This document shows, in pieces, positions 7,122-56,292 of a stretch of DNA of 64,000 bases; within the stretch, counting starts at the first letter, position 1; each line of letters opens with the position of its first letter. The position numbers were made by a program, and so were the translations under genes. The notes under the pieces were generated by a model that saw only the letters and a list, made by a program, of their open reading frames with translations, was not told the origin of the DNA and did no database searches. The DNA comes from Sarcocystis neurona (Eukaryota; Apicomplexa; Conoidasida; Eucoccidiorida; Sarcocystidae): positions 124,001 to 188,000 of the forward strand of contig KL647324.1 of NCBI GenBank assembly GCA_000727475.1. Direction: 5' to 3'.

Positions 7122-7639
7122 TCAGCTGCCGACAAATCCGGAAGGCAGTCCCATGGATTTGAGCATTTTTTGTTCTTCGGTTTCTTCCTGTTCTTCCTCT
7201 TTAACTCTCCCCTCCTCTCTTGGGCCCTGAGGGTTTTCATCGTCTTCTCCCGTCGCCGAACCTGCCTTTTTCCTCCTTTTCTTCAACTTCCTCCTCAACT
7301 TTTTCTCTTCCTCCTGCTTCTGGAGTTCCTCCAGTCGCCGCTTGATTCTGTCAATATCGTCGTAGTTTTCCTCCAGCACCGGTCGCCTCACTTTCCCTGC
7401 TGCCGCCGATGCACCTGTCGCCGCTGCCGCTGACACCCCTTCGGTCTTTGCGTGCAAAGACAAAGATGCACCGCCAGTTCCTCCTTCTCCTGCAGCTCCT
7501 CCTCCAGCTGTCACACTTCCTCCCCCTGTATTATCCACTGGGTCCTCTCCTTCTAATTCCAACTGCGCCTGTCTCTCGAGTTCTCGCAGCTTGCCAATCA
7601 CTCGCTCAGGAGGTGCGCGTTCCACACGCATGGTCATGC
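7122..7639 (-). CDS. SNU23-like terminal exon
   Basis: The acceptor ATTGCTTCAG precedes GCATGACCATGCGTG. The exon starts with the conserved GMTMRVER and ends with [11 protein letters not shown] and a stop at 7122. It holds the low-complexity Gly/Ala insert and the C-terminal coiled coil. Confidence 0.85.
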
Positions 7640-18104: not shown

Positions 18105-18444
18105 ATGGGTTCCCTGTCGCTAGCCGCCAAAGCGGCTGCGACCATTGCCACAGCCGCTGTCCTGAGCGGCGCTTGGATGTACTCACGCTACTCCAAGTCG
18201 CAGTTTCCTCGCTACCGTGACACTAAACGCCCACTGGACTTCTCCTCGTTTCTGCTCTCCTACGCAACCCGCCCCCTTGTTCGTCGTTTTTTCACCATTC
18301 CAGAGTCCGACTGGGACCGCGATCGCACAGTTGATGGCCTGGTTCACGTTGTGGACGTCTACAGAGATGATAGGGGGGTTCCGTATATTTTCGCACACAC
18401 TGATGATGATGCTCACTACGCCCACCTCTACGTGGAATACACCG
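18105..18444 (+). CDS. Penicillin amidase exon 1
   Basis: ATG 18105 is chosen over the in-frame ATG at 18060 because it is followed at once by the hydrophobic segment SLAAKAAATIATAAVLSGAW; both remain possible. The exon encodes VDVYRDDRGVPYIFAHTDDD, the conserved family entry motif, and ends ACCG|GTGAGT at phase 1. Confidence 0.85.
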
Positions 18445-21400
18445 GTGAGTTATGCACAAATGAAGTAGGTCCCGGCGTCGTACAACTAGCGTGGATCTAT
18501 TCTTGCCACTGTAGTCTTGGCATGCCCTCGGAGAAGTGAAGGTTGCGCTGCGCTTCCTTCGGTCCTGTGTTGCCGCAGAGTGGGTCCGCAGAAATAGGAT
18601 GTGATCCAGTAATACTCAGTGATAAAAGCGATACCTCATGCCCAGATCCCCTCTGACAGGAGCACCTAGAGGACCACGGATCCAAAGAAGAGTGTAATAG
18701 TTAAAATTGATGTGGCGGCAGATCATGAGAACGCGCAGACAGTACGCAAAAGCGGCGCCACGACTCCGACGAACGAAAAAAAGACTTCATGTTACCATAA
18801 AAGGAACTTGCACAGAAATGTATAGCTTCTGCGGAGAAGTGTGGTCACACGTGTGAATTACGAGTGCAACTCGTACAGAGACAGTAGACCTATAAAAGGA
18901 GGCAAAACCTAGGTGGAAAGTGAAGGCCTCTACAGCGTCTATGGCGAGGTAGACGTTGTCTACTATCTGCAGTATCTTTCAGTCTACTCCCCTGCTCGGC
19001 ACCCCCACGCTTCCCTTATCCTTGTTGCAACGAAAATTTCCTTCGCGGACTCTAACGAGTGTCTCACTCATTGTAACGGAGGTTCATTCTACAGTGCGAG
19101 ACCTCTTGAAAGGCTACACCATCTTAAAAGACTCAAGTTGGAGAACGCTACGTGGTGACTCGCAAGACTTATTGGTGCTTCTTAAGGAAGAGACCGCTTC
19201 CATTACTGTGCAAGAAAATTGTGCTTCTCTATCGGCGGACCGCCGGTGAGCGTTCATGCCTCCAGAGCAAGAGACATGCATAGTCGGACACCCGAATGAC
19301 ACACAGTCCACACATTCGATTCTTGCAGTTCTGCCTCTGCTGCTCTTCTGCGTCAGTTGCCAGCGCAACACCTTAATCGCCTGAATGCGTTTTCCGGGAA
19401 GCTCCCGGAGGAGGTTGAAAGGGGAACTGGCCGCTTTGCGGTATAACGCAGCCACCTGACTTTATTTCGCTTACGTTGTGTCAGCTGTATCAGCGATACG
19501 GCAGGAGGGTTGAAACTAACAATCCACTCAGTAGAACTCTCGGCCACACTGTTACCTCATTAAATCCACCGTGAAGAGGTCTCCACTGACGCAAATCAAA
19601 CACTCAAACAGATCCATTGCTATACCTCAACAAGTGATACTTTTTGGCGTGCACGCATGTAACTGTAAAGTTGTGCTATTCTTTTGGTTCTCTGCTTATT
19701 GCGTAGTGGTAATTCGTAGGGGCGTCGGTGTACTATGCAGCACACTATTTAGATGCATATCTGTTGGGCTGGTGCTCGACAGAGATAGAATGTAAGCCCA
19801 CAGGCTTCAGTTCCACAGTGCTGGTGAAAACCCGTCATACGCTGATTTTCTTCGCTACTCGTTTGCGTTTGTGCAGCAGAGCGCGCTTCCTACGAATTTG
19901 CTTCTTCGTTCTCTCACCTGTACATACCCAGCCTGCGCGAGTGCCGCGCAGAAAACCGTCAACATAAAAAAAGCGACGCCTGTCCAACATGCTGGAACTC
20001 TGATTTTTCTTCTTACTCCGTGCTGAGTCAACGTATTTTGAACATGGATTTATACGCGTATATTCAGAAACCCTGCGTCCCTTTAATGTGCCTTGCATCA
20101 TTCCCTGTCTCTTCTTCAGTGTGTCCACTTCCGTTTTACGTAGCATAAAATCGCTGTATACCGTTACGTTATGCCCTGCTCTCCGTCCGTGACCGTACAC
20201 CTTCGTTCGACTCCCTGAATTTTCGGCTACTCCTTCGATGATAGTATTCACTTTTTCCCCGAGTGCTTACTCTATTATTTTGTCCTCTTGCTTCAACGTT
20301 GTGCACACAGGAGGACCACTATTTCTCTCACCCCACGCTTCCGTTTATATTCCTGACTTGTCAATTTCCTGTCTTCATTTGAAATTACAGTTTGTAATGC
20401 TCTGCTTGTGTGCACATCCGTACCCATGAACAGAGCGGTATGCGTGAAGCGACAACGCATTTGGCGTCAGCAGATGGCGCACTCGTCTCCATTTTGACGA
20501 ATCCATCCTTACACTGCTCTCTCTGACTAGTGTGTCGGCCGTCCTACATAATCGCCCCTCTGTCCGTGCATGTTTCTCTTTCGTTTCGCCGTAGGCCTGC
20601 GTCTTTGAATCCTGCACCACCTAACCACTTGACTGCACACCTACCCGTACCTGTTTTTGTTTTTCCGTCTATCCATAATCCCACTACGCCGCCGTACTGT
20701 TCTGCTTCTTGCTCCCTCGAGGTCTTGTTCGCTGCATTTCTGTTGATTTGCGACATCGTCTGAGGGGATGCCGGCTGCTGTGGTTGCATGCATCTCTCAT
20801 TCAGAACGTCCCTTTCAATACGAACTTCTACGTCGAGTCGCTGCGGGGCGGCTAAGCGAGACTTTCGGCAAAAGTGCGCTTCCTACTGATATGCGGTCAC
20901 GTGCGATAATGGACAGGGATTATATGCAACACAGGCTGGATACCATGGCTCCAGAAATTAGAGCTATGATCGATAATGCCGTATCAGGTCGGTCTTCCAT
21001 ATATGCTGCAGATACGTGATTATGGTACATGCTAGATTGGCACGCCTGTTCTGTAGGCACGCGCGACTTTGTACAGGCGCTGGTGTGCACCTGCGGAGTC
21101 ACGCAGAACAGGGGTGTGTGCACCTTTTCGGTATGCGTCGCACATGAAGAAATGGTAAGTATCTTTCGGTAGACACATCCATGAATGACGCTGCATACGA
21201 ACATATGCATGTATGTATATATGGACGTCGGTATGTACCCAAGCGTATTGTACGCGCTCATTGACGCGCTCGTGGTTGTGTCCTACTTCGAGGTACACGC
21301 ACATACATTGTAAGCGCGTATGTGTACATATCTCTCCCTAAAAAGATCGTATGCGCTTCTGAAGACACGGATACGTAGGCTTTCAAATAATTCCACAAAT

Positions 21401-24400
21401 AAAGCGGGCACCACCCATGCATGCGTGGAGCTTCGTATGATGCGCAAGCGTGCGAGTGGCATCGTACAATCTCCTGATGGTTTTACATGCTATCGAGCGG
21501 GTTTCTCAGGCGTCGGCATCCATCAACTTTGCATGCGAGAACTGCAACACCTACACCCAGACGCTGCGCAGCAGCAGCAGTCCTGGGTGGACATTCGCAT
21601 GTTGTACACAGCATATATATATATAACACGTGTAGCCTACTGACGCTACAGACATCTTATGTACCGCATATTTCGTTTGTTCACATGCCTCAACCCTGAG
21701 GTTGGGGGTGTGTGAGAGGAAGAGTAGAGGGAGAGAAAGACAGAGGGAGAGGGAGAGAGAGAGGAAGCGAAAGAAGGAGATTTGTGCACGTGGAAGACAA
21801 CTACTCATTGAGGGCATTGACGGAAAGTGTGAAGACAAGTGTGACAGATTTGTGACGCCAAATGCCGTGCGGGGGATGCCACACGCATAAGGAGGAGTAC
21901 ACATTTATCCCTGTCTGCTCATCAGGCGGACGTAGAGAGCCTGCGTAACGTATGTATCCGTGCGTGTGTGAATGTGCGTTTGTACTCTATTGACAGCAGA
22001 TGCAGCTTGCGGCGTCGTACGTCAACACGTAGGCTAATACAGACTGTAAACAAGTCATACGTGTTTTGTCCCGTGCCAGGTGATGACTACGAATCCAACG
22101 TACACACGCTTGCACAGTGGATAGACGGGAAACTTCAGTAATACGCAGTTTTTCGAGAAGGTCAACCACGCCCAGGTGCGAAAACGTGTACCCTCTATCT
22201 TACTGCAGAGCGTACATGCGCAAACAGGGTAGTGGACCATGAAAAGAGTATGACTACTCACAAAAGTGGAAGACTCACGCAACGGAAAAGAGTCGTACGC
22301 GAATCTGTTAACTAAAGAAGCTACGAAGAATGCACTTAGGAGGTATGGAGAAGTCGAGCATTTTAATGCATACACCGTGCCAGCTATCGTCGTGTTACTG
22401 TCTTTAGGAAATACAAGTAGCAGACATCAAAACGGTACAAACCATGGGTACTGAAGATATGAATTACGCAAAAGATAAGTCACGTGTCTGCTGTACGTAC
22501 GTAATCGCTACACTAGAGCACACTTACACACAGAACACATGGGCTGGTATGTGTTTTAGCGTGTTCGTCCGCATGATTTTGGCATTCTTGAGGGTGCCAG
22601 AATACACGCAATCGTAGAACAGAAAAGTAGCATCCATGTAGACGCGTCAGGGTACAGAACAAGTGGAGTACGTGAGGTGTAGAAATGCAGGCAGCCCAGA
22701 GCAAGCAACTTGTGAGACTTTTTAAAGGAAATCGGAGTGAAGGGTGCGTAGAGGGTGGATGTGGTTGCACAGTAAGATGTGTACGTGTGGATGTTAATGA
22801 TCCGGTCGTTGCCTAACACGTAAAATATGTGCTGCATGTGCATCACACGTACTAGTATGTGCGAACGTTACATTTGCGTACCTCTCTGGCGGTCTATCTA
22901 TCTTTCTGTATGCCGGTCTGACTATCTTTCCACCTATACATATATATATATATCTATCTCTATGACGCAGAAGTACTGTCCAGGCAGTGACAGTGCGTGC
23001 TGTAGATATAAAAGAACCATTACGTTGCATGCAGCCGTCTGCGCGGAGATGCACTGCAGACCTGTATACCTATTTACGGAGGCATGTCTGCCCACGCATC
23101 AAAATTCGTCACACCACAACCTTACAGATACATATATATGACCTCTTCACTCATCAGCGCGAAAACGGTTTCACCTCTTCATCCACAGACTGGCCTCGAC
23201 GGGGGCGCACGCTGTTTTTCAACCAACCGACAACACGTAGCTCTACCCCCACACACACGCACACTGTGCATAGCTATTTGCGTGCATATCACACACCTGC
23301 AGACTATGCCTTTTTGTGTATGCAACAACTCGCTAAAACACGTCCTCGACACATGCGTTAAGTCACAAGTTGACACGTGACTGATCTATTGAAATAACTT
23401 ACGCAGCGTCGATCCACACAACTCTTCGAACCTGCCTAAGGCGTTGGATGGCCTGGTGCGCGTGACGTGTTGACCAGCGTTTGTCTCCCCTAGTTTGGCT
23501 GTCGGGCCTCTGCGTGTAGTGCTCTTGCTTTTACGCTGCTTGTCGCAGCCATAAATGAAGCGGGGTCGGCGTTACCAGCCACCCCTGTCGAATTCTATTG
23601 GTTGAACTGGAAGTTCGAGCCATGGACAGCGCTAGAATATTTCATGGTGGTGCAACTGCTGGCGTCGCACCTGGCCAGAGGCTTCAGCGCTGACTACACG
23701 AGATCGGCGCTGCAGCAGAGGATGGGCGACTATTGGACGGTAATTCACCAGATGTCCTGTCCTTCTTCCTGCTTGCCCTTTGTCTATGTTTGCATGTGCT
23801 TACCTTTGTCTTCCTCCCTTTTCTCCTCACCCTTTCTCTGTATACTGTGCGCAGGATTAGAAAGCGAGCTTTTCGCCTGCTCTTCTCCAACGAATGCATA
23901 GATATATGTAGATCCAGCTGTGCACCTAGCTCCCTCGCTGTTTTTTTTCCTCAACCGTCGCTGTCTTCCTCTCCTGCTCTTAACACGCGCTTGCAAAGCT
24001 ACCATCCCTCTGTCTTTCTCTCTCTCCTTCCATGTACGAAGGGACACTTCTAGCGCCCTCTCATTCTCATGTCTTTTTTGTTGTCTCCATTGTTTCTCTC
24101 CACTTGTGCCTCTCTCTTCCGTTCATCACCTCCATATTTCTATACGTGAATGTCTCCTGCGTCCCTCTCTCCCTCCCTCTCTCTTCATGTTTCCTTTGTT
24201 CTCTTTTCATGTTCAAGTCTCTATTCTTTACCTGTTCGTACGGACACCTCTCTCGCCATGTAGATTTCTCTCTCGCTTCGCCTGTCTCTCCCCTGCGCCG
24301 TTCTGCCCTCATCCTTCCCCCACCTGCACTCATACTTCATTCCTTTCGCCCCGTTTCTCTACCTCTGTTTTTCTTCTCCTTTTTAGTCTGTACGTATCCG

Positions 24401-27400
24401 AGACTCCCTCTTCCTCCTTTAGTTGCTTCTGTCTCTCCCGGTCATCATCTCCTCTATGCGTATGTCTCCATGACGCCGACTCTATGCGCGTCTGTCTTTT
24501 CGCGTCTCTCTCTTCGTGTGTCTCCCTCCCTTTCCTCTCTCACATCGCCTGTCCGTCCCGTGGCCCTTTTCTATGGCTGCTGGTTGACCTTCTTGGCCCG
24601 TTTGTGTGTGTGTGTCTCTCTTTATGCGCACACACATATATATTAATATATCTTTACGTTAGTGGCAAAGACGACTTTCGGTCGCCGATGATGGAGCTTG
24701 CAGGCGTTTGACATGGGAAGCGCAAAAGACGTACCTCCTCTGAATCCTTACGGAGAAAGACCCGAGCTGCTCACCCAGCATGGGCTCCGCATGCAGTCCC
24801 CAATAATAGGTCCTGCGGAGAGTGATTGGGCGAAACAGCGACCAGAAGACGTTCGAACGGTAATTGAGAGCCTTCGCCGAAGGGGCAGGTCTAGACGACA
24901 AGTCACCGATGAAGACGAAGAATACATAGAAGAGACTGTGATCCAGGATGAGAGCGGAACGACCTCGATAAACGAAGAGGAGACGACAGCTGGTTTCCCC
25001 AACTTCGGTCCTCCTCGCTGGGTGAGTCCCACGTCTGCCTCAGCCGCGCATGCTCTAGAAGCGTTTTCTAGGTAGGTTGCCTCGATTCGACAACACCTGC
25101 ACCGCACACGTAGAAGCGTGTGAGCACACGCATACGTACACACACACATATACACACATACAAAAGCATATAAGTACACGCTGATGTAGCCACAGGAAGA
25201 CCTTGACGCAGTGAAATCTCTTGAACCTCCAACGCGGACGCCGGCACGGGGAGAAAAGTACAACAGCAAACACGGATCCATGCCCAGGTTTATCACAGTC
25301 TGTCCAAATATGGCCGCCGACGAAAACGGCGTAAACGTAGGGCAGACATGCTGCGGCGCGTTTGCTGGGAGTTGTACGTACGTGAATACCCAATTATTCG
25401 TCCTCACTGTTTACCAACGACTAGAGCAAGGGGCGTCGACGGGAGCGCCCTGCATACGGGCGACCGTGCCCGGCCTTTGACCTGAGAGTCTTCTCTTGTC
25501 CTCAGGTGACAGAGCGCAGGCCTGGGTGATGCACCCGGTCATCCATTTCACGTGCTGAAGCGTCTCCTGGTGCTGTTGTGTTTGCTCTTCTTCTTGCGCC
25601 CTCCGATGAAAAAGAGCAAAACTACTTGTGTACAGCGATACGTGTACATATACGCGTGTTGATGTCCAGGGCCACAGAAAAGGGGCAGTCGACCTCAGGC
25701 GTCTCAGAGCGTCCGTGTGTCCCTGAGCGCGACCAGAAGAGGGCCACTGACACCGTAATGACTGCAGACAAGAGGGGGCCTACCTGTCCCACGTAAACTT
25801 GAGATAGGAATGCCACGCGTGCGTTTGCGCCTCTTTTTCTGGACGTGTACATGTGCGTATGCATACAAGTGTGTGCATCAATAGATGGATAGCCACCGAT
25901 GTATTTGACTCCATGCAACAAAAGGAGACCCAGCAGTTCCTGAGTGTGAAAAAGGTCTTTCCTTCCACAAACTGCTTTCTATTTCAAACAAAACGTCGAC
26001 CCCAATGGAATATTGGTCCCTCTCCGCTGCACTGTAGTGCACTTTCCTGCTCTAATACAGGGGGTACATGTATGCTTGGAAGCCGCAGTCATTCAAAAAT
26101 AACCAATATTCACGGTACTATAGACTACAGCCAAACTTGTGATAATGTACCACACAGTGCGTTCTCGGCTGGGACATCTTTACGTCTCTCGCCTGCCCGC
26201 TTGACCCGCCTTTTCCGCTGAAGTGTGTGTATGCCGCACTGTGGTGCCCCGGGACCTGCAGGCAGGAAGCAACGCTTGGGCGGTTTCAGGCCGCTACACG
26301 AACACAGGCTCTCCCATCTTAGCAGCGGATACGCATCTGCCGGCAGTCCTTCCAGGTGGGCTACTTCTACGTGTAGACGACACTCACGTGTATCTGTCCT
26401 TGTGTGCCCATAGCTCCCCTCGCCCTCAGCACTACGTGCATAGGGATTTGTCTGCGAGAAGCTGTTGAAGGTCTTTCTCTCTCCCTCTCTCGCTTGCTCT
26501 GTATTTTGTGTGCTGCGGTGTTTTCAGGGGCCTATGTTCTCCTCTTGCAGTCCACTTTTTATAGATAATTAAACTTGCTTAGACCAGGTTGAACTTGTTC
26601 GCACGTCTGTGTATGCCGACGTTGTTCTACTAGTGTGTCTGTGGAGCTAGGTACACATACGCAGACATCCATACACGAAGAAAAACTATCCCTGGCATTT
26701 CCCGCCATGCTTCCCTTGCGTGTGTAGACCAAGATGCCCAGCTACCTCTCTGTGTAAGAGAACCGGTCTCTACAAATGTCTGGGCAGGTGGACGCGCCTT
26801 CTTGTCCTTGTCTCCCTTCCTTCTTCGCTGCCCAACGTGAGGGTCGATTTATGTAGACTTCTACTTCTCTCAACCGTCTGCCTGCTGGTGGACGTCGACC
26901 TATTTCTCCCTCTCTGCACACACCATTCACGAATTTTCTTCTCAACGTTCGTCTGTGTCTGTCTTCTTCCGACTTCGGCAGCGGGGCTCTCTGCTCGTGT
27001 TAGAAAAGCGCGAGTGAACACGTTTCGTGCGGATGTGCTCTTCCCTTCTTGTTTCTCCTGGTTCCTTCTTCTTCGTTGTTTTGTGCTTTTTCCCCTCTTT
27101 CTCGACAATACCTTCTGCCTGCGCCCCGCGTATCTCTTTCTGCTCTTTGTGCCTTCGTGCGCCGCTGGTCTACATCCACTTCTTCAAAGCTGGCGCCTGC
27201 CTTCTGATTGTGTGCTCCACTTCTTCCTTCTCTTTTTTGGGACTTATTTCTTTTCGCTTATTCGAATAAGCCGGAATTCACTTGTGGTCAAGACACGTGC
27301 TTCTGATTTTCGCCTCCTGTCTCGTCTTTTTCACTGACGGTCGCAAATTTCCTCCCTCTCCCTCTCTATCCCTTTCTTGTTCTTCACTTCTCTTGTCTCG

Positions 27401-30400: not shown

Positions 30401-30822
30401 AGGGAAGGAGTGCATATACAAACACGACAGTAGTGTACGTTTGTGTGCGGGGAAGGGATTGCTAGTGTTGCTACATATGTTTTTGCCTGCATGTGGATAA
30501 TCGCAGGCAAATACGTGGATGTCGAAAACTCTCTTCACAAGACAAACAGATGTATTTGTGTACAGACACGACTATGTACGAATGCGTGCGCAAATATATA
30601 GATGTAAACACCTAACTACGTTTCCACAAACGTAAACCTACAGTCAAAGCTATCTCCCTCTCTCTCTTCCCCTACGTATATATGCATATGTGCAGACACA
30701 GCTGCCTCTCTCTCTTCCACACATGCACACACTTTCTCTCTCTATATATATCTATATATACATATATATTCAGACGCAGCCACCTCTCTCTCCTTCACAC
30801 ATACACACACTGTCTCTCTCTC

Positions 30823-30854
<32 letters not shown>

Positions 30855-33800: not shown

Positions 33801-33865
33801 ATACATATATATATACATATATATATGTATATATGTATGTATATTTATATATATACGTATTTATA

Positions 33866-33899
<34 letters not shown>

Positions 33900-42640: not shown

Positions 42641-42671
<31 letters not shown>

Positions 42672-43096
42672 AATGTGTATACAAAGATAGAGACGGACAG
42701 ACAGAGAGACACACACATGTATATAGTTCAGGATGGATACGTTTGTACAAATGTACGGACAAATCCATGTAAATCCACAGCGGAACCGCTATGGATATTT
42801 ACTGTGGTACACAGACAGAAGAGTTAATGCGTGAGGGGGTCCGAAGTTTCATTCTTCGTGAGTGTCAAAAGGCAGGCGCTTGCTATCACGGGGACACACA
42901 CTGCCAAAATACGAACATCAATACCCTTACGATATTCACACGTATATACATGTCTGTACATTTACGTACATGTCTCTTCACTTCTTCTATATAAACATAA
43001 ATACGTTTTTCCCTCTGCCGCCTCCGCGATGTATATGTGTGCCTATGCATGTATGCGTCTGTGTTTGCCTCTCTGGTGCCTCTGCTACGTATGTAC

Positions 43097-43127
<31 letters not shown>

Positions 43128-46100: not shown

Positions 46101-49100
46101 GTAGGGGGCCGTAGAAGGACGGAGGGGAGTGCGAGCGCCTATTACAGCGTACAGCTGAGATACGTCTATATATATAGGAGACAGAGAAAAGGAGAGAATG
46201 GCGCCGGACTTTCTTGAACTGCAGAGTCCTATCTGCGTTGCGACGTCGGCGCTACATGAAGTGCCACGCATATTCTTTGCACGTGCTTTACGCCCAAGCA
46301 ACAAATACAGCTGTACAAGGAGACCCGTCCGACGGGTGGGTGTGTCTCGATAGATAAGAGAAGATTGGCAGGAGACATAGGGCGTGTGAAAAGAAGGTAG
46401 CCAGATCGCCGGAGCACACGAAGAGCAGTTCAGGGAGCCAAGATGGCGAGTGGTCTACCCTTGCACAAAAATGTGCCAGCCTACGTGTGTGCGTGCATCA
46501 ATGGATCTTCCGCTATCTCCGTGTAAAAAGTAGCGCGTCATTTCTCTCTTGTTCTCTCTTTTTCTCTGGATAAATATATAGGTTCAGACGGAAGAGACAT
46601 ATAAATCGACGTAAAGAGGAGTGTATGAGGAGAAAAAGAGAGACAAATAGAATGCGGGTGACAGGAGCTACTCTTTCGTGTCAACGAACAACGGTCGAAC
46701 GAACAAGAGGTAGTACACATATGTATATACCTGCAAACGCATGGCCGACTCCCTCCTGCTTCTTACCTAGACGTATAGGTCCATCTGACCAGCTCCTATA
46801 TATGTTCGTCTGTCTTGGCACGCTTGGCTGCAAGCAGCTACGTCGCGCTGGACGTGTGGATGGCTCGCGCGTGGATTCGTCTAGACACGCGCACATGTGT
46901 GTGGGTGTACGATAGTATGGAGAGGGATATTTGTGTCTAGTTTCCGTGTGAACAAGATAGCCAGACAGATTATCCTTCCTTGCACAAATGCCTGCATCTG
47001 TGTAGACGTGTGTATGTGAACAAAAAGAAACGTGTATTTCCGGATACAGAGGGCGACGGAGAACAAAGAAGATAGAAGGAGACGCAAAGGGTGCGACAAG
47101 AATGAGGAACAGAAAGTCTTGTTACCACGGAGACATGTGCCCACACATCCACTGCACAGGGGCCCAATTTTCGTTTTCAGCGGCGTGTGTGCGTAAACAC
47201 GTCTTCTAGGATAGCTGTCTCATACGCACACGCGTAAACACACACACCTATATAGCAATATGTGATAATATATGCATATATATGCATGTAGTGGAGGGCA
47301 TACGTAGATGCCTGCAGTACAAATCCAGAAGCAATTTTTGTCTAACACACACACACGGCCGTATCCATCTGCGTTCAAGGGTGTGCCTGCCTCACAGACG
47401 TAATATGAAAGAAACGTTTCCTTTTTCATCCATGCCTTGAGAGAGTCCTTTTCGTCGCCTCACTTCAAAGCTCCATTACGCTCTGTCTACGGCCATGTGA
47501 AAAGCGAAAGAGACACCTACTTACCTGGACACATACATATATGTATATATACATTTGTGTGTGCGTAGCTCTATCCATGCGTCTCTATGTGTGCGTGTGT
47601 GTATGTGCGTGCGTACAAAGATACACAAATGCGCACACACATGTCACACACATGTATAAACAGGTGTACATATGTATAGACGCAGCTTCGTAAGTTCGTC
47701 GTCTCGTGCAACCTCGCCAACCAATACGCCTATAAGTGTACAGAAACGTGTGTTACATACACATAAATATATATGACCATGTTGAGACGCAGCGCCGGAA
47801 CTCCGTCGTCCGCCCCGTTCAACCCAGCAGAGCAACACGCCTGGCTTTGACATGCGTTACGCGTGTGCGTACATGTGTATATGTGTATTCCTCTGTGGAT
47901 CTATGTGTGTCTGTCTCTCAAAGGAAAAAATCCTAGTGTTGAAGGTGTGTGGACGTGTCCTCAGGCCTGCACGTGCCTGTTTTTCTCCGTGGCTGCTTGT
48001 GTGTGCGTGTGTACGGTTCTTCATGGGTGAGACGTCTACAACTGCGTACGCGTTTGCGTATGTGTCTATGTATATTCATCTACACCTTTCTTTCCCTCTC
48101 TCTGTCTCTCTGGCTTCCTCTGGCTTCTTCCTCGCTCTACACGAAATATGTTTATATATCTGCACACACGTGTAGGGCTTGTCTTTTTTTGCATGTGTGC
48201 CAAAGGCTGTACAAATTAATGGTCCGTTGGGACGGGTCTTTGCATGGAGAGTCTGTCGCCGCAACGGTGTATGAGGTCTGGCAGCAATGGACGTTGCAGC
48301 TCCTTTTTGAGATGCATGGATTCCCCGACGAGACGCTCGAAATATTGCAGGGTAAGCTTTCACGCTGCCAACGCTGAAGTCCTTCCACAAGGCAGCTGCA
48401 AGAGCCGAAGCGCGTCTGCAGAACTCCCCGTATATAACTCTCTGCGACCCGTGCACGTATGGAGGATCCTCCTACACACCCCGCCTACTCAGTTATAACC
48501 TACAAAAAGGCGTAGATGTAGTCGGCATATATATATATATATATGGGTATACAGGACACATAGATACCAGGATAACATCTGCACATGCAGATATCGCATA
48601 CTAGAGAAGATAGACTTAGCCTGCACGTTCATATACATATATCTATACCAGAACGAGAGCTACGCTTGCGCGTGTGCTTGAGTATGTAGAGAATTCTAAT
48701 GTGAGAAGTGGTGACGGCGGTCCCTGTTGAAGCGTCACTCCATTTGCGGTAATAGTAAGATGCTTCGTCGGGCGCACACCTTTATATGTAAATACTTCTT
48801 TTACCGTCGGGTAGACCGCGCGGAAGTAGCGATAATAGATGTGTTACGCGCATATATGTCTGTCTGTGTATGTGTACATCGATCAAAGTGACCAGCTCAT
48901 GTGAGTGGCTCTACCCCACCGTACATACACGCATGTGTACCTGCCTATGGATGTGCGTGTGATATACATATATATATATATATATACAGATATATATGCG
49001 TCTGTATGTTTATATGCGTGTATCGATTTACATTCGTGCGAGGAGTAGACGGATGCAACGGCAGTGAACACAGACATTTCTTCATACAACAGGTGAATTT

Positions 49101-52100
49101 TCTTGAAACACCTGTGCAACAGAGAGCAACGGGACCTACCAGTTATTACCGTACGACCACACACTTTACACACATATATATATATATATATGTAGGTGCA
49201 TACGCTTCTGCAGCGGTAGAATGTTTCCCTAGGACGCTTGGGGGCTCGCGGGCCACGTTCCCTGTAGTAACGATAATATTACGTGTACCCACATTTGAAT
49301 ATTTCCGCAGACCCACGCAGCAGTTTTACAACTCACAGATAGTAGACAAAAATGCGTTGACACTGCCTCTTCTGCCGGCGGGACATATATATGTATATAT
49401 GTGGAGAGGAAGAGGGAGAGATTTCTATATGTCTGTAAATGTACACATATGTGTATATATACGTATATACTAGGTGAGCACGTAGATGCCATGTAATTTT
49501 ATATCCCTGTATCCAGGTGAGTGACACTGGCATTTAGTCTCCTTATATATATCAATTTATATGTGGATAGGAAGAGAGAGAGATTTTTATATGTGTGTAA
49601 ATATATCTACGTATATATATGTATAAATATATTAGTCGAGCACGTAGGTGCCAAGTAATTTATATTCCAGTATCAAGGTGAGTGATATTGGCATTTGCAT
49701 TCCTTTCTGTCGTGTCTCGGGAAGAGAGACGTCTCTGACCGTCTGTTTTCAGGACATTTCTGGATGAGAGAGACATGTTTTTGCTGCTGCTCGGTTTGTC
49801 TCTCTCTCTCTCTGCACTGGTACGTATGTATGTGTCTCAGGAAACGCAAAGGTAAAAAAAGTATGGCGTCGAGACTCGTTCTACTCGGACAATGTGCTAC
49901 ATGGTTTTCTCTTTTTCTTCCTCTCGTTCTCTTCCTCTCTTTTCCTCTCTTTCTCTTTTCCCATGTATGCATATATGCATGTCTGTGTCCACCGCTGCTC
50001 TCGTCCTATTATTCTCTTGCTCTCACTCGTCCGCGTAGTACCAGTAGGAGACGCATCTCGTCTCGAAATCTTCTTCCTCTTTGCGTGTGTCTACTTGGTA
50101 GAGGTGTACGTGTCTCTACGCGTCTCACGCGCGTTGCTGCCTGGCTCTGTCTCGCCCTCTCTCTGTCTCCGTCTCTCTCGGCCCACTCTGTTCCCCCCTT
50201 CGTCTCGGGCTCTGTCCTTCCTCGCACTGTCTTTGTTGGTCTGTTCTCGCCCGTTGGCTTTCTTCCCCAAGTTTTCAGGTGCACGCGTTTGCTACGGCGC
50301 TGCTGCTGCAGGGGTTGAACTGGATACGGTGTGGGTGGGCGGGCTTAGCGTCAGAAGCCACTGGAGCCACAATCTTCTACGTGCGATGCAGGACGAGGGT
50401 ATGCGGCCCAAGCTGCTTCAGCGTTGATTCTCTCCTCGTTACCGCTACCTTTCTGAGTTTCCCGTACGGGTCTGGCTTTTGTTCCCTCATCCTTGCGGTG
50501 AACAATGACGTACACGCCTGTGGTCCTCTTCTCTGTTTGTCTTTCTTCCCACTTTCTTCCTCTCTCCATCCGGCAACCACGTACACGCCTGTGGTCCCCT
50601 TCTCTGACGGCCTTTTTTTTCACTTTATTCCTCTGTCTTCTTCCCATCTCCACACTGCTACTCTTTCTCTCTCTGTTGTATTAATCCGTTTCTATCTGCC
50701 CGTTTCCCTCCCTCTTCGTCTCTACCTACGCGGACATATGTATACGACGTGGGTGATCTGCGATGTGGACGCCGGCGGTTGGAACAAGACAACACGTACA
50801 TCTCTGGGGAGCCACAGTCGCAGCAGTAAACAGCCGTGCAGCTCTCTCTCTCCTTGCAGAGAGCCCTGCCACCCGTTTTACTCTCTACCCCGCCGCGGGA
50901 CGATGCACGTTTGCTGCGCTTGTCTGTTTTTGACAGGGGTTTGCGACTGCTGCGCTGGCGTGCAACTGCTCCAAGTGCTTTGTGCTGTGCTGGTGTTGCT
51001 GCGGGGTGCTACTGCTCTTCTTATGCCCGTTGCCGTCGCTGCTGCCTGGTGTCGCTGCGTGTTGCCCTGCTTGCTGCGGCTGCAGTCATTCCTCTGTGCT
51101 GCTGCTGCTGCCTTAGCTGCTTTTCTGCCTTTGCTGCTTTTCTGCCGCTTGTGTGTTTGGTAGTTGTTGCCACCGTTTCTCAGCAGGAACGGCGAGTGAC
51201 TACGTCTGCTGTGCTTCTGTACTGTCACCGCTGCTGCTGCTGCCCTGGTTCAAATCGTGCTGCTTCCCTCTCTTTCTCCTACTGACACTGCTGCAGCTTC
51301 TCGAATGTTTTCCTGGGCTGTTTTGCCGCGGCTCTCCACTCACTTCCGGTGGTAGTCTGCCTTCTCGTCGAAGCTGACGTTCCCCGCTACCCTTGCGGGT
51401 CTGTTGCTCCCCGAGGCCCCTTCTACTGTTTTTTCAGAGTTGCTGCCCTGACCCTGTTCTTCCGCTTCCTGCTGTTGCTCTCCTCGTGCTGTTCAGCGTC
51501 TACTTCTCAACTGTTTCTACTGCGCCTTTCCACCTGTCAGATTGCTACCCTTTGCTGCTTCTGCAGCTGACTCCTTCTCATGATGTGCCCTTCACGCAAC
51601 CAGCGTGCCGCTGGTGCCGCCTCTCCGCTGCGCGCTGCAGCAGTCCTTTGCCGCTAGGACGTACACCGACACATAACACTGTTTACGACTTCGAACCGAT
51701 GCTTTGCCGCGGCGCTGCTCCTGTGCCTGCGCTGCTGCCGCTTCACTGTTGAAGGAGTGGTGCTGTTCTGCCGACCTTGCCCTCTGCTCTGCCGCCGCTC
51801 GTCCTCGTGCGAACTGCTCTGTGTGGTTCACCGCGTCACTCGTTTCCACATAGGCTCGTGTGCCCGTCGCGTCAGTCTTATGAAGTTCCACATGTATGCA
51901 TGCCTCTCCGTCTTCTATTTGTAAATGTTTCTCCTGCGGAGGCTACAGCAGCTGCAAAGTGACAATGTCTTTGGGCAAAAGAGACGGACGGTGCACTGCT
52001 GTAGTAGGTGACGTGCTGCTGGTAGGGGTTCTGCGCCCGCGGGGGTTACAGCTCCTGCGCCCTTTTAGTCCCCCCACACACTTTTCTACCCCGCTGTGCT

Positions 52101-55100
52101 GTTCGTTTTTGCTTTTCCGGTTCTGGGTCTTTCTTGCTGCTGGTTTGCTACTTTCTTCTTCCCATTGTTGCTGCCGCCTGCTGCACCAAGTGGGTGGTGC
52201 TGCCACGCTCCCACGAGGCCTCTGTGTTTTTCCTTTTCACGGCGGCCTGGCGATTGCTGTAGCTGTTTCCTCTGTGCTGCAGGCCGCTGTGTGAGGCTCC
52301 TGCGTCTTCCTGCTGTGCCTTGCTTTGCCGCTGCTGGTGTCCTCATCGGCGTGGCTCGTAATGCTTGTGGCGGTGTTGCAGCGCCAGTCGTCGACGACGT
52401 CACGACGCCCAAAGCTCTGCTGTGCGGGGGGGCCGCCGCTGCTTTGAAGTGGCTGCGGTTGCGCTACGGCAAGGACGCTAACGATTGGTCGTGGGGAAAG
52501 GTCCGCGCCGCCTTCATCGATCACCCAATAGCAAGCAATATGCCACTGCTACGGCACTCTACGTCGGTCGGCCCCCACCAAGTTGAAGGCGACAGCGCAA
52601 CTATCAACAGCCACCACTTTATGCCGACAAGTGAGTCGTCAAGGTTTGGGAAAGAAGAATAGAAAGAGAAAGAGACGCTTTGCCACAGGAGCGGAAAAGT
52701 CGGCACGTGGTGTTTTCGTTTGCCGTCTCCACCAAGAAGGGGAAGAGAAAGAAGCAACGACGACAGTACAAACACGTTTGCAAAAGAGGAGGGAAACGAA
52801 GATTCGCAGGCGCACACGTGCCGTTGGTTAAGCAGCAGAGATGGTGATGCACACGGATACACAAACGCCGACAACTCTGAGTAGACGTGGTAAAGGATCC
52901 GTCCCCGCTTCACAGACAGTCTGCAATCTGTTAAAACGGAGCTCGCGCGTTCCTCTATGTGTGCACACAGGGCGCAAACAAGCAGAGGCTCTTCTATTTT
53001 TAAAGTGACGACCTGCCAGGCGACAAAACAAGGTTACGTCTCTGTGCTGCTATCTCTTTCCACCCACACGCACATATACGTATGTCTTCCCTCTTTTGTT
53101 GACTACGTACAAAGTACACGTATAACAGGCTCCACACAGGCAGAAACGGAGGAGGAGGACAAGGAGGAGGAGGAAACGCAGGCAGGCTCTTTTCCGTGTG
53201 GGATGCACACGTGCTGCGCGGCGGGGTGCAAATAGCGAAGACACACAACGGAGGTCGAGAAGAGAGCAGACCCTCTCCTTGACGGGTAGCTATTTTTGAG
53301 GAGCAGCTCTGTGCTGAAGAAAACGTGGCGCATGCACCCGTGTGTACACGTGCCTCTGGGTCGACGCGTACAGCGTTTCTACACCGTATATATACAGACT
53401 TGCGCTCACGTAGTCGAAGTCTGTGGAGCGTACGCACAAGAGGAGAAGGTCGCTGTAGCTTGGTTACCTCGATTCTTTCGTAAGAATCTGCAGCGATCTC
53501 GGCCGACGTCGTCTCAGGGCTGTATCCACACGTGCGGATGCCTGTAGACGTCTACGTCGCTAACTTCCCTCACGAAACCCCCGGTGACAACGGGAGATGG
53601 GCACTTACACACATGTAGAGACCGACGTTTTCTTCCTTTCTCACTTTTTTTATACCTACGACTGCGCACACGGAACTATTAATGAAGTTCGTGTCCCTAG
53701 AAAACAGGATACCTGGACATTCACCCAGACGTGTGTGTGCCAAAGACCTTCTCCCTCTAGCGCGATGATCTGTGTCACTGTGTCTCCCTCTCGTTGACTC
53801 TTCGGATGCCTATTCTTGTCCACGTCAACCAGGCGTCTCTTCGTGTAGTGGCCAATGGAAGAATTGAAGGACACAAAGGTGGACACCCGCAGGTGACGAA
53901 AGCAGTGAAGCCGCTCGTAGTTCCGAATTAAGTGGAACAACGACCTGACGGTGCTTTGTACTGTCACGTTTTGCACGACCTGTTGGAGGCGCTGTTCCCA
54001 CGCGTCTGTCTGTGCAACTCTGTGCGACTCTGTCTAATTTTTTGTTTCCCCTTCAGTACAGGAGAACTCCGCACGCTTCCGTTCTGTCGTACGTTGTGGT
54101 GGGATTGGCTGGAAGCGCAGGTGTATCGCATGGACTTTATTGTGTTCCTCCTGGAAGTTCACCAAGCGTAGTGCGTCCTCTCGTAGTGGTCGATCTCTTG
54201 GCAAGAAGAGCACGGTGTGCCTGTGTACGAGTCTGTACACATGTGGTTTTCTTGGTGGTGGGCGCACAGGCAACCAAGCTGCAATAGAACCAGCAGCAGC
54301 ATAGAAAGAGACAGGCCATTCAGTTACCCAACAGCGTTGACGAGTTTCTGTCCAGTTGCAGCTGCCGGGGGGAAGTGCGAATCCGTGAGGGATGCCTGCG
54401 ACGTGGTGCGTCGGCCTCTGCTGGGGCTGGACGTGCATGCGTGCATGGATTCAGTTGGATGTCCACAAGCTGATCGCGTCCGCGTGTATATGCATATACT
54501 CAGTTACACGCACACACGTGCGGAGGCAAGAAAGTGCATATTGTTTCTTTACGTGCATATAGACAAGTGTAGGGTCATCTAGAGTAGTATGTCTGAGCAC
54601 CCAGGGACGTATGTCTACATTTGTCTGGGCGCACACACATAGGTACATGTGCATGTATGTGTGTGAACTGTGTGCGGATGTGTGGATGTGAATGCGTATA
54701 TGCCTCTGTGCACGCGTAACTCAAGTTTTGAAAATGGACAATCCACGAAACGGCGCCTTCTCAGCTCGGACGCACGCTCCGGTGTTTCGAATGGTGAGTG
54801 CTGTGGTGTACGTACGTCGCATGGACGATCTGCAGAAGACATAGAGTTCTGGAGAGCAGCACCGGAGTACATAATTTCTCGTCCAACGACTGAATTCGCA
54901 CTTCCTCTTGTGTCTTTTTGCTGGTTCTGCAGTGGCTCCCGCAATTCAGTCAGACTCTACGTAGGTGCAGCGCGTTCACACATATGCCTACATACTTCAC
55001 CAGGAGTTGAGTTCCACGTGTCTTCGCATTTGGAGTTTCCTTCTTTTTCATGCAGCTTTGCGTAAGCGTGTACATTTGGACACACGCGCCGTTAGATGCG

Positions 55101-56292
55101 GTGGTTCAAAATTTGACATCACGTCTTTAGCACCTACACTGCACATACTTCAGTGCTCGTCTACCCGTCTCTTCCCTGTGCTTGTAACGTATAAACATGT
55201 TTACCGGTGTGTGTGTGCGCATCTCTCTCTCTCACACTCTCTATATAGAAATGTATATATATATATATGTATATATATGCATATGTGTAACGTATACACA
55301 CTTGTATCTGTGTAAGTGCATATATATATATATATATATGTGGGGATACCACATGTGTCCACACGTACTACTTCTTACAAAGGATATTCCTCGTGTCCTG
55401 TTCTGTTTTTGAGATTCAGCAGAAGCTGGCAATTTGCTTTCAAGCCCGTGCATCAGAACCTCCGTGCGTAAAACTTTGCACGACAAGAGACGCTAAGTAG
55501 TTGCCATCTTGTTCCTCTCTGGTGCGTGCGTGCGGTCATACGCGGCACTACACTGCAGTCGCCTGCTGCCTGGTGGCAGTCACCCTATATTTATATATAT
55601 ATATATATAAATGTATATATATGCATGTTTCTCGAGTGACTGTGTGTCCTTCGTGAGAGGATGGACGCTACCCAGCACATGTGTTATTTTCTCTGGGTGA
55701 CGAGTTGCTGCTACTCTGTAGAAAGGGTCGAGTGCCACATATTGATATGCGTATCTCCTGACTCTTGGCTGTGTAAACTGTCATCCCCTAAATAGTATAC
55801 CTCTGCACGTGTACGTGGGAAACTTCTCTACATATGTATATATATATACACATACGTTGACGCTTTCGTATCCCTCTTTAAACCTATACAGGTGTACGTT
55901 GGTGCACATATTTCGCCTCTTTTCTCTATTGACACACGTTGTTGACAATATATATATATATATGTATAGATATATATAGATGTACACGTATAGATATATA
56001 GAGAGAGATAGACACGAATATGAGGAAGATGATTCGCATATATATATATATATATATATGTACATGTATAGATATATATAGAGAGAGATTGACACGAATA
56101 TGAGGAAGATGATTCGCATATATATGTATATATATACTTATATATTTCTGGTTCCCTGTCTTTCCTTGGTGGTGCAGGTTGTGGATTTGAGTGATATGAG
56201 GAACAGCTTCTGGACAATGATGTCAGGAGTTTCAGGGTGGGTGGGGAGTAAGAACTACGACAACTTTGCTTCCAGCCTTGAAACGACTGCAG
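18105..56292 (+). CDS. Penicillin amidase (penicillin acylase) family Ntn hydrolase
   Basis: I assembled 18 exons (340, 183, 191, 318, 186, 94, 317, 127, 74, 153, 122, 85, 158, 146, 120, 249, 29 and 115 nt), about 1002 codons, all joins in phase. In order: N-terminal hydrophobic segment (residues 2-28, possible signal anchor); VYRDDRGVPYIFAH (about 87-100); ERPFQYELLRRVAAGRLSE (114-132); PWTALEY; a charged 168-residue stretch before the nucleophile; AGSNAWAVSG with Ser409 as expected beta-chain residue 1; ADTHL with His431 (beta-23); GHNDHTAWG (493-501); YTHHGP; ATSEGDIG; ANPLSGFVGAANGRV; YRQQRVHELL; VRWDGSLHGES; WLRLRYG and WSWG; GDSATIN; VFRMVVDLSD; SGVSG. Known family role: self-cleaving amidases that hydrolyse acyl amides (beta-lactam side chains, acyl-homoserine lactones, lipopeptides). 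The substrate here is unknown. The C-terminal end is missing. Confidence 0.9.
18445..20804 (+). other. Intron 1
   Basis: GTGAGT to CATTCAG. It contains a 138-codon basic minus frame at 19835-20251 that I do not accept as a gene. No repeats of note. Confidence 0.75.
20805..20987 (+). CDS. Penicillin amidase exon 2
   Basis: Starts after CTCATTCAG. It completes a Glu codon and reads ERPFQYELLRRVAAGRLSE, the family motif with the paired Arg, followed by LDTMAPEIRAMIDNAVS. The donor GTCGGT is weak, so the 3' end may be a few bases off, but its phase fits exon 3. Confidence 0.85.
20988..23548 (+). other. Intron 2
   Basis: Holds purine-rich GAGA (about 21715-21780) and TA/CA stretches (about 22925-22965). 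No gene seen. Confidence 0.7.
23549..23739 (+). CDS. Penicillin amidase exon 3
   Basis: Starts after TGTCGCAG and ends ACG|GTAATT at phase 0. It encodes NEAGSALPATPVEFYWL and the family PW motif (FEPWTALEYFMVVQLL), then SALQQRMGDYWT. Confidence 0.85.
23740..24703 (+). other. Intron 3, pyrimidine-rich
   Basis: From about 23760 to 24650 the sense strand is almost entirely C/T with few purines. The Leu/Ser/Pro/Phe frames here are translations of this tract. It ends CTTGCAG. Confidence 0.8.
24704..25021 (+). CDS. Penicillin amidase exon 4
   Basis: Phase 0 at both ends, GCTTGCAG to TGG|GTGAGT. It encodes the end of the alpha-chain region and a linker: a basic RRRGRSRR cluster directly followed by an acidic run (TDEDEEYIEETVIQDE). 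Most of this is not conserved in bacterial relatives and may be spacer peptide. Confidence 0.8.
25196..25381 (+). CDS. Penicillin amidase exon 5
   Basis: Starts after GCCACAG, phase 0, and reads EDLDAVKSLEPPTRTP. It encodes the segment just before the catalytic Ser (FITVCPNMAADENGVNVGQ, then CCGAFAGS). The 3' end at TAC|GTGAAT is chosen because it alone keeps phase 0 with exon 6; nearby GTACGT sites are alternatives. Confidence 0.65.
25382..26261 (+). other. Intron 5
   Basis: No gene or long repeat seen. Ends GACCTGCAG. Confidence 0.65.
26262..26355 (+). CDS. Penicillin amidase exon 6, catalytic nucleophile
   Basis: Starts after ACCTGCAG with A-G-S-N-A-W-A-V-S-G. The Ser is the expected autoproteolytic and catalytic residue at the start of the beta-chain. 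Twenty-two residues later comes ADTHL, whose His occupies beta-23, the position of the active-site His in cephalosporin and acyl-homoserine lactone acylases. Ends CCAG|GTGGGC at phase 1. Confidence 0.9.
26356..27542 (+). other. Intron 6, pyrimidine-rich 3' half
   Basis: From about 26780 to 27535 the sense strand is C/T-rich, running into the acceptor GGCTGCAG. Confidence 0.75.
27543..27859 (+). CDS. Penicillin amidase exon 7
   Basis: Completes the split Gly codon and reads FWMPVFVSVGP, then an Arg-rich stretch, then VTGISAVGLARICAGHNDHT-AWGHT and VDLFLVKLD. These match the family P-x-W, slPG and GHN-iaWG-DVDlF motifs. Ends AAG|GTATGC at phase 0. Confidence 0.9.
27860..28935 (+). other. Intron 7
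   Basis: Contains a (CA)n run at about 28587-28620. The long minus frames across it are Cys/His-rich and not supported as genes. Confidence 0.65.
28936..29062 (+). CDS. Penicillin amidase exon 8
   Basis: The acceptor GCGCGTAG (a TAG rather than CAG site) is chosen because it gives phase 0 and the family reading VK-GQTRKAAATMRYTHHGPII. The alternative CAG 14-17 nt downstream breaks the frame. Ends GCAG|GTTACA at phase 1. Confidence 0.8.
30693..31135. repeat. Minisatellite A, six copies
   Basis: Units start at about 30693, 30771, 30865, 30939, 31025 and 31113 (74-94 nt). Each begins CAGACACAGC or a close variant, then CTCTCTCTCCTTCACACATA, then CACACACT and a TA run of variable length. The length differences come mainly from the TA part. 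Confidence 0.9.
31650..32050. repeat. Minisatellite B, six copies
   Basis: Units start at about 31650, 31721, 31796, 31867, 31938 and 32025 (71-87 nt; the last is partial). The core is TGGTGTCTCTGATGAATG followed by GAGGAGAAATGCAGGTCCCA and a TA run. It is unrelated to array A except for the TA spacer. Confidence 0.9.
33411..33905. repeat. TA / CTAT microsatellites
   Basis: A run of TATA(G/C) near 33415-33475, CTAT/CTAC tetranucleotides at about 33720-33785, and a long TA run to 33900. All lie within intron 8. Confidence 0.8.
34280..34353 (+). CDS. Penicillin amidase exon 9
   Basis: A 74-nt exon after GCTACAG, ending CTG|GTGAGA at phase 0. It encodes LPSFEFLENARSWEDFILL, matching the family segment A-x-x-W-x-x-F that precedes the oxyanion region. 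It joins exon 8 (phase 1) directly. Confidence 0.75.
34354..36364 (+). other. Intron 9
   Basis: TA runs at about 34430-34495, 34848-34870 and 34945-34963. CTG-rich DNA (about 35735-36360) runs up to the acceptor GCGACAG. Minus frames here (for example 35124-35717) are not supported. Confidence 0.7.
36365..36517 (+). CDS. Penicillin amidase exon 10
   Basis: Phase 0 to phase 0, CAG|GTAACA donor. It encodes LNQQVGLTVVWATSEGDIGG, then GAIPRRN, matching the family (I-N-W/V-Y-Y-A-D-x-x-G-N-I-G ... G-x-x-P-x-R) region. The Asn that supplies the oxyanion hole in bacterial enzymes aligns with Thr620 here. Confidence 0.85.
36518..40317 (+). other. Intron 10, 3.8 kb
   Basis: Triplet-rich CTG DNA at about 36640-37935, then sense-strand pyrimidine-rich DNA at about 38330-40080, ending TTCCCAG. 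The 254-codon minus frame at 37597-38361 is Ala/Gln-rich and lies on CAG triplets, so I do not call it. Confidence 0.7.
40318..40439 (+). CDS. Penicillin amidase exon 11
   Basis: Starts after CTTCCCAG with GALSQNEMPHVANPLSGF, then VGAANGRVSNDP, the family NP-x-x-G-x-i-x-x-aN-x-x motif. Ends CCCGG|GTGAAC at phase 2. Confidence 0.85.
40440..42001 (+). other. Intron 11
   Basis: CAG-rich on the sense strand (about 40445-41130), unlike the CTG sense of the other introns. TA/CA runs follow, with TA at about 41938-41958. Ends CCATGCAG. Confidence 0.7.
42002..42086 (+). CDS. Penicillin amidase exon 12
   Basis: An 85-nt exon, CATGCAG to CAG|GTAATG. It completes a Gly codon and reads YRQQRVHELLRNLTARGRI, then GVDDMIEMQ, the family R-i-x-x-l-L ... 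t-x-d-x-x-x-Q segment. Confidence 0.85.
42087..44699 (+). other. Intron 12
   Basis: Many TA runs (about 42240-42275, 42640-42672, 43095-43130, 43708-43733), then a pyrimidine-rich sense strand from about 43970 to the acceptor CTTTTACAG. It contains a 108-nt direct duplication at 44221-44435. Confidence 0.7.
44221..44435. repeat. Direct duplication, period about 108
   Basis: Two imperfect copies sharing GGCAGTTCTGCTCTT (near 44243 and 44351), a CTGTCG core and CCTTCTTCT. Intronic. Confidence 0.75.
44700..44857 (+). CDS. Penicillin amidase exon 13
   Basis: Starts after TTTTACAG with HDVVSIHAREWRAFAVATVL, the equivalent of the family Q-x-D-x-x-S-x-x-A segment; exon 12 supplies the preceding Gln. 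It ends with a charged stretch (QDEGLTEEDGAW) at GCGTG|GTAGGT, phase 2. Confidence 0.75.
44858..48205 (+). other. Intron 13
   Basis: CTG-rich from about 44930 to 45830, a 152-nt direct duplication at 45940-46190, then mixed TA/CA DNA. No other gene seen. Confidence 0.65.
45940..46190. repeat. Direct duplication, period about 152
   Basis: Two imperfect copies beginning GGGGCCGTA (45953 and 46105), sharing ACAGCTGAGATACGT and a GAGACAG-AGGAGAG stretch. Confidence 0.75.
48206..48351 (+). CDS. Penicillin amidase exon 14
   Basis: The acceptor CCAAAG (AAG rather than CAG, after a T-rich tract) is set by phase 2 and by the reading LYKLMVRWDGSLHGES, then AATVYEVWQQW. This matches the family L-x-x-WDG-x-x-x-x-dS-x-A-a-x-x-y-x-x-w motif. 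Ends CAGG|GTAAGC at phase 1. Confidence 0.85.
48352..50278 (+). other. Intron 14
   Basis: TA runs (about 48525-48545, 48965-48990, 49172-49192), a 163-nt direct duplication at 49395-49700, and a pyrimidine-rich sense strand from about 49890 to the acceptor TTTTCAG. Confidence 0.7.
49395..49700. repeat. Direct duplication, period about 163
   Basis: Two imperfect copies. GTGGA(G/T)AGGAAGAG near 49401 and 49562, and GAGCACGTAG near 49475 and 49638, each followed by an AGGTGAGTGA(C/T)A stretch. Confidence 0.75.
50279..50398 (+). CDS. Penicillin amidase exon 15
   Basis: Starts after GTTTTCAG at phase 1, ends GAGG|GTATGC at phase 1. It encodes ARVCYGAAAAGVELDTVWV, then SVRSHWSHNLLRAMQDE. Conservation is weak in this part of the family, so the call rests on phase, splice sites and position. 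Confidence 0.65.
50399..52381 (+). other. Intron 15
   Basis: Pyrimidine-rich, with a short duplication (ACGTACACGCCTGTGGTCC at about 50509 and 50579). CTG-rich DNA from about 50930 to 52380 runs into the acceptor GTTGCAG. Confidence 0.7.
52382..52630 (+). CDS. Penicillin amidase exon 16
   Basis: Encodes AAAALKWLRLRYGKDANDWS, then WGKVRAAFIDHPIASNMPLL, then GDSATINSHHFMPT: the family A-L-x-x-L-x-x-x-x-G, W-x-W-G and GD-x-x-T-V/I-N motifs in order. Starts after GTTGCAG, ends ACAA|GTGAGT at phase 1. Confidence 0.9.
52631..54764 (+). other. Intron 16
   Basis: Mixed DNA with no long repeat. A possible exon near 54058 (after CCCTTCAG) was considered and set aside because its reading does not fit the family. 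Confidence 0.6.
54765..54793 (+). CDS. Penicillin amidase exon 17, 29-nt microexon
   Basis: Lies between CTTCTCAG and ATG|GTGAGT. It reads RTHAPVFRM, which joins exon 18 to give VFRMVVDLSD, the family (S-x-R-m-v-v-D-l) motif. Both junction phases fit. An alternative small exon at about 54927-54954 (reading SVRLY) would also fit exon 18 but not exon 16. Confidence 0.65.
54794..56177 (+). other. Intron 17
   Basis: TA runs (about 55250-55340, 55590-55625, 55948-56062) and an 80-nt tandem repeat just before exon 18. Ends GGTGCAG. Confidence 0.7.
55955..56135. repeat. 80-nt tandem repeat
   Basis: Two copies with GACACGAATATGAGGAAGAT at 56011 and 56091, flanked by GATATATA-GAGAGAGAT and TA runs, plus a partial third copy upstream. 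It ends about 45 nt before exon 18. Confidence 0.8.
56178..56292 (+). CDS. Penicillin amidase exon 18
   Basis: Reads VVDLSDMRNSFWTMMSGVSG, then WVGSKNYDNFASSLETTA. This is the C-terminal family motif (vvDl ... GqSG ... S-x-h-Y-x-d). Donor GCAG|GTGAGA at phase 1. The frame also stays open past this donor to 56516, so read-through cannot be excluded. Confidence 0.85.

Follow-up and report, generated by a model that had tools for sequence, protein, structure and literature searches.

The penicillin amidase gene and its surroundings

The window analysed here, a 64,000-nucleotide stretch of Sarcocystis neurona DNA (positions 124001-188000 of contig C37), carries on its forward strand an 18-exon penicillin amidase gene, hereafter copy A, which extends from 18105 to 58693 of the window (142105-182693 on the contig) and spans 40,589 bp with 17 introns. 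The initial annotation had placed an 18-exon gene of about 38 kb at 18105-56292; the gene is real, and the order, strand and phase of its exons held, whereas position 56292 proved to be the end of exon 17, leaving 17 exons in that range and the eighteenth at 58554-58693. With exon 14 taken from 50279, the coding sequence measures 2961 nt including the stop and encodes 986 amino acids, with a predicted mass of about 111 kDa; depending on the model, the protein is 975-986 amino acids long. The frame contains no internal stop. The introns measure 964-5217 bp, all 17 are GT-AG and all phases match, an agreement that is not independent evidence for the model because the exon ends were picked using splice sites and phases.

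The draft model consisted of 14 exons, recognised from translations resembling penicillin amidase blocks, and its protein matched the Pfam family PF01804 at an E-value of 6.3e-97. Exon 10 was recovered by a splice-blind scan of open reading frames (ORFs). Exons 8 and 12 were chosen among 589 and 623 in-phase candidates, respectively, on profile score and splice sites combined, and the chosen forms are not the top ones by profile score alone. For exon 18, open 3' exons were scored; the top profile score was tied over five starts, among which the best acceptor was picked.

Exon 1 (18105-18444) begins with an ATG start and a moderately hydrophobic N-terminus that may act as a signal anchor or signal peptide, and it opens the alpha part of the protein. 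The alpha part continues through exon 2 (20805-20987; RPFQYELLRR...GRLSETFG) and exon 3 (23549-23739), which are 183 and 191 nt long in all three tandem copies of the gene (A, B and C, the latter two described below). Exon 4 (24704-25021) encodes the linker or spacer ahead of the nucleophile, with inserts, and is 318, 288 and 315 nt long in A, B and C. The presumed processing site, Gly346/Ser347, lies in exon 5 (26262-26355), with the codon of Ser-B1 at 26268-26270 and that of His-B23 (H369) at 26334-26336. The beta part follows with the GHN..AWG block in exon 6 (27543-27859) and the THHGPIISD block in exon 7 (28936-29062).

Exon 8 (34280-34353) ranked second of the 589 candidates, its score of 15.5 lying just below the 15.7 of a longer form with the same acceptor and a weaker donor; it was chosen by its donor, and its counterparts in B and C are 74 nt long. 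Exon 9 (36365-36517) was matched in the splice-blind test and has counterparts in B and C. Exon 10 (40318-40439) carries the conserved Asn622 (40384-40386), and exon 11 (42002-42086), with a splice-blind E-value of only 1.4 and a length of 85 nt in all three copies, carries the conserved Arg642. Exon 12 (44700-44857) was among the best of its 623 candidates; it was chosen by its splice sites with a profile score of 13.8 against 18.4 for longer forms extending upstream, and homologous exons are found in B and C.

The WDG block lies in exon 13 (48206-48351). Exon 14 is preferred as an 87-nt exon at 50312-50398; an alternative acceptor upstream would start it at 50279, and the start at 50312 is probably the correct one because its counterparts in B and C share the length of 87 nt. 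Exon 15 (52382-52630) encodes the WSWG...DHP block, exon 16 (54765-54793) is a micro-exon of 29 nt with hand-set counterparts of 68 nt in B and 23 nt in C, and exon 17 (56178-56292) encodes the VVDLSD...GVSG block. The terminal exon 18 (58554-58693) ends in the stop codon TAG at 58691-58693, and its motif MLWTDEQIxxAAVTHMxLLP likewise closes copies B and C.

Elsewhere in the window, a splicing-factor gene resembling SNU23/ZMAT2 lies in pieces on the reverse strand at 7125-9617. A zinc-finger piece (28 residues) near 8204 and an end reading MRVER...GLPSGF at 7125-7667, both on the reverse strand, are presumably SNU23/ZMAT2-like, and the end gave no ZMAT2 match in its own PDB search. An exon at about 9399-9617, on the same strand, matches human Zinc finger matrin-type protein 2 (PDB 5o9z; E 2.4e-4). 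An open frame rich in alanine and glycine at 11313-12017 on the reverse strand has the top coding score outside the amidase gene, and its enclosing frame showed no Pfam family. On the forward strand, an open frame of 231 codons at 2930-3622 had no Pfam or PDB match. A Pfam search of five other ORFs of the window found no family.

The genome comprises 123.0 Mb in 74 contigs, of which C37 accounts for 873 kb. The earlier impression of a coccidian genome is supported by 20 matches to the SRS domain (PF04092), which we take to be a marker of Sarcocystidae, compared with none in 14 controls, all of them prokaryotes. PF11054, presumably an Eimeria surface-antigen family, had no match in the genome and none in any control, and its absence says little because the controls are likewise without a match.

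Family membership and the active site

The protein joined from the exons of copy A (986-residue model) matched PF01804, the family named in the initial annotation, almost from end to end (E 3.6e-129; 433.2 bits against a cut-off of 21.3; profile positions 2-657 of 675). A second profile, built from 89 prokaryotic homologues, was matched at positions 35-800 of 801 with an E-value of 1.4e-141. This homologue set is biased: a single peptide pattern and tblastn rank selected 80 of 576 loci, and the other nine are plasmid loci picked from the 30 matches listed (55 records in all). Among these homologues, the best identity to copy A over the kept columns is 29%, and all 55 plasmid records fell below 60% identity to the draft protein.

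The match is also found where splicing is disregarded. When 2292 six-frame ORFs of the window (at least 15 amino acids each) were compared with the profile of 89 prokaryotic homologues, 11 matched with E<0.01; all of them lie on the forward strand, between 18306 and 56276, and follow the order of the profile. No further ORF of the window matched at E<1. In 20 dinucleotide-preserving shuffles of the window, there were no matches at E<0.01 and none at E<1, the lowest E-value being 1.5.

The PF01804 penicillin amidase family is mostly bacterial, and its members cleave themselves before a serine. In copy A, this nucleophile lies in the sequence G346-S347-N348. Ser347 (Ser-B1) and Asn348 are found in 89 of 89 homologues, as are His369 (B23), Asp449 and Arg642, while Asn622, presumably the oxyanion-hole residue, is found in 88 of 89; none of these residues differs among the three copies. 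The residue before the serine is glycine in 79 homologues and alanine in 10, and Gly346 is kept in all three copies. Position B23 is glutamine in penicillin G acylase and histidine in copy A. Overall, each copy keeps 38 of the 44 near-invariant columns (at least 95% conserved); those altered in copy A are G108L, D114E, G175A, Y379M, P426A and D446K. Additionally, the family motif GQSG, with glutamine in 66 of 89 homologues, reads GVSG in A, B and C, and inserts are present in the spacer and the beta part of copy A.

Phylogenetic analysis with bacterial members, which had been proposed for this gene, gave a partial answer: the three copies group together (SH-aLRT 100), and their position among the prokaryotes is unstable. 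In the tree with all 89 homologues, copy A joins six Acidobacteriota and two Methylocystis rows, a placement that carried a long-branch flag; once four long rows were dropped and a mixture model was used, it falls within a mixed set of 32 rows. The placement shifts between trees and points to no one prokaryotic donor. A viral origin was also considered and rejected: among viral contigs there were 15 pattern matches, none of which encodes a relative.

An old tandem array

A search of the whole genome with PF01804 gave, among the best-scored candidates, 11 exon-level matches, all on the forward strand of C37 and belonging to three genes. Copy B (C37:188552-226839, forward strand, 18 exons) starts 552 bp beyond the right edge of the window, and copy C (C37:231330-265409, forward strand, 18 exons) lies to the right of copy B. 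The flanks at 104001-124000 and 188001-308000 of C37 were examined by tblastn with the copy A protein, leaving phase and splice sites unconstrained. Of the 18 exons in each copy, 16 of copy B and 17 of copy C were recovered in order at E<1, and there was no match at 104-142 or 266-308 kb of the contig.

Copies B and C were modelled under the phases of copy A, with exons 7, 13 and 16 of copy C and exon 16 of copy B set by hand from the sequence. Equality of phase among the copies is therefore partly by construction, and the test of a shared layout is given by the open frames, the exon lengths and the unconstrained tblastn matches. With A's phases imposed, each of the two copies has one open frame (975 amino acids in B, 985 in C). 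Exon lengths equal those of copy A at 12 of 18 exons in B and 11 of 18 in C (with exon 14 of A at 87 nt). Copy A thus has the features of a spliceosomal gene, GT-AG at each intron and a layout conserved between paralogues; across the three copies, 50 of 51 introns are GT-AG, the sole GC-AG intron being intron 13 of copy C (C37:253319). Both B and C match the profile of 89 prokaryotic homologues (E 7e-140 and 1.8e-142, respectively).

The copies have diverged considerably, with protein identities of 51% (A-B), 49% (A-C) and 57% (B-C). Between copies, Nei-Gojobori (NG86) estimates gave dN of 0.34-0.47 and dS of 1.5-1.9, with dN below dS in all three pairs, which indicates that the copies are under purifying selection, that dS is near saturation and that the duplication is old. 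Outside the exons, likeness between copies is restricted to short scattered matches (six for A-B, three for A-C and three for B-C). On the simplest reading of these sequences, the introns would be older than the duplications.

In the literature searched, no report of a tandem array of coccidian penicillin amidases was found. The array therefore appears to be unreported; the kind of gene is already known, because coccidian members have been named in print. In Toxoplasma gondii, TGME49_275320, annotated as a penicillin amidase, is listed with a 5-fold increase in chronic infection (PMC4177681, Table 4). For Eimeria tenella, ETH_00029250 is listed with 27 unique peptides and ranks in the top 50 proteins by abundance in unsporulated oocysts (PMC12784848, Table 2), and the text of an oocyst-wall paper names penicillin amidase among the most abundant proteins (PMC10707475). 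In the accessible text of the latter paper, the word penicillin occurs once and ETH_00029250 nowhere, so its Table 1 is taken to be without the name. NCLIV_052780 of N. caninum, annotated as a penicillin amidase, is described as differing between isolates, and a Naegleria homologue is given as a fragment, Q25548 (PMC6803445, PMC9312180).

Proposed function and comparison with known systems

Combined, these results suggest, with a probability of about 0.88, that copy A is one member of an old three-gene tandem array, probably sarcocystid, encoding PF01804 Ntn hydrolases that act on an N-acyl amide. Comparison of sequences establishes the gene structure, the intact frames in three copies and the conservation of Ser347, His369, Asn622, Arg642 and the surroundings of the presumed processing site. 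In the proposed mechanism, the N-terminal hydrophobic segment would take the protein into the secretory route, where the folded protein would cut itself between Gly346 and Ser347 and the spacer would be lost to give an alpha/beta heterodimer. Once free, Ser347 would use its alpha-amino group as the base and hydrolyse an amide bond in the N-acyl substrate.

Of these steps, the secretory route is weakly supported by copy A itself. The hydropathy maximum over 19-residue windows lies at residues 2-22 with a mean of 1.43, a window near residue 517 reaches 1.40, and none in the protein exceeds 1.6, the usual level of a membrane span. Because the N-terminal hydropathy is moderate and the window near residue 517 is almost equal to it, the route is drawn more from the family than from the sequence of copy A.

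No substrate of the coccidian members is given in the portions of the literature that were available. The simplest guess would be that the enzyme handles an acylated metabolite or lipid of the cyst or oocyst stages, given the abundance of the E. tenella protein in oocysts and the higher level of the T. gondii gene during chronic infection. A more specific and unlikely version is that the array comprises deacylases dedicated to the cyst or oocyst programme, which would trim or recycle an N-acylated product of the large polyketide synthases encoded in this genome, the triplication marking a split of substrate ranges or stages. The grounds for this version are threefold. Of the nine plasmid loci, four have a PF01804 gene adjoining an ABC transporter for cyclic-peptide export, and in two of these it also adjoins a condensation-domain gene. 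The ketoacyl-synthase family PF00109 has 17 matches in the genome, 16 of them on contigs C14, C19 and C23; 11 matches, on these same contigs, lie in frames of at least 834 codons, which are probably large type I polyketide or fatty-acid synthases. Finally, penicillin amidase and equisetin synthetase are listed as co-abundant in E. tenella oocysts (PMC10707475, PMC12784848).

An unlikely alternative role is that of a quorum-quenching or antibacterial acylase that would act in the host gut by cleaving N-acyl signals or lipopeptides from bacteria. Acylases of acyl-homoserine lactones (AHL) and of lipopeptides do belong to the family, histidine occupies B23 as in the aligned glutaryl-7-ACA acylase, and the PvdQ model gives a weak local match; however, that match reaches 20 bits against a cut-off of 950, and the coccidian members, in the published tables and text available, are noted in oocysts and chronic infection and not in gut stages only. 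Slightly more improbable is a relative that has lost catalytic activity and would be retained for a structural or binding role, for instance in the cyst or oocyst wall. Arrays often hold diverged copies, and the six altered near-invariant columns of copy A and the change of Q to V in the GQSG motif would agree with such a loss, as would the abundance in oocyst walls stated for the E. tenella protein (PMC10707475). Against this, Ser-B1, Asn-B2, His-B23, the conserved asparagine and arginine and the glycine before the serine are kept in all three copies, and dN is well under dS in each pair.

Bacterial contamination, recent transfer or a pseudogene would fit a mostly bacterial family and is highly improbable given 17 introns of spliceosomal type, open frames, two paralogues of the same layout and a best prokaryotic identity of 29%; the introns, the paralogues and the 873-kb contig likewise reject a contaminating bacterial scaffold, and a pseudogene is not supported for any copy, with no internal stop over 975-986 codons each and dN below dS. 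The view of an old, retained enzyme, put forward in the initial annotation, is thereby upheld.

The array is a case of a bacterial-type acylase family that was retained, cut by 17 introns and tripled in a coccidian lineage. Given the exon map and the active-site residues, autoprocessing can be tested and substrates screened directly, and the stages concerned matter for transmission and persistence.

Compared with known systems, copy A shares a full-length domain match and the key residues with prokaryotic PF01804 proteins (Acidobacteriota, Chloroflexota and others) and differs from them in its identity of at most 29% and in having no stable nearest group. Among solved structures, the best relatives by sequence are D-succinylase (PDB 7eby, 7ea4) for the whole protein and glutaryl-7-ACA acylase (4hst, 4hsr) for the beta part, and penicillin G acylases are also among the best. 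In the alignment with 4hst_B, Ser1 and His23 correspond one-to-one (E 0.64 for this stretch alone, 1.1e-18 for the whole sequence), and Asn622 aligns with the first asparagine of the ANN motif; unlike D-succinylase and glutaryl-7-ACA acylase, the coccidian protein has inserts in the spacer and the beta part. The AHL acylase PvdQ (NCBIfam NF051460) belongs to the same superfamily and gave a weak local match (E 1.3e-4), the sole NCBIfam match of copy A and one below the equivalog threshold. TGME49_275320, NCLIV_052780 and ETH_00029250 share the family name with copy A and are likened to it by annotation only. ETH_00029250, listed at 102.6 kDa (PMC12784848), is similar in size to copy A, and each of the three species is represented in the published passages by a single gene identifier, in contrast to the three tandem copies described here.
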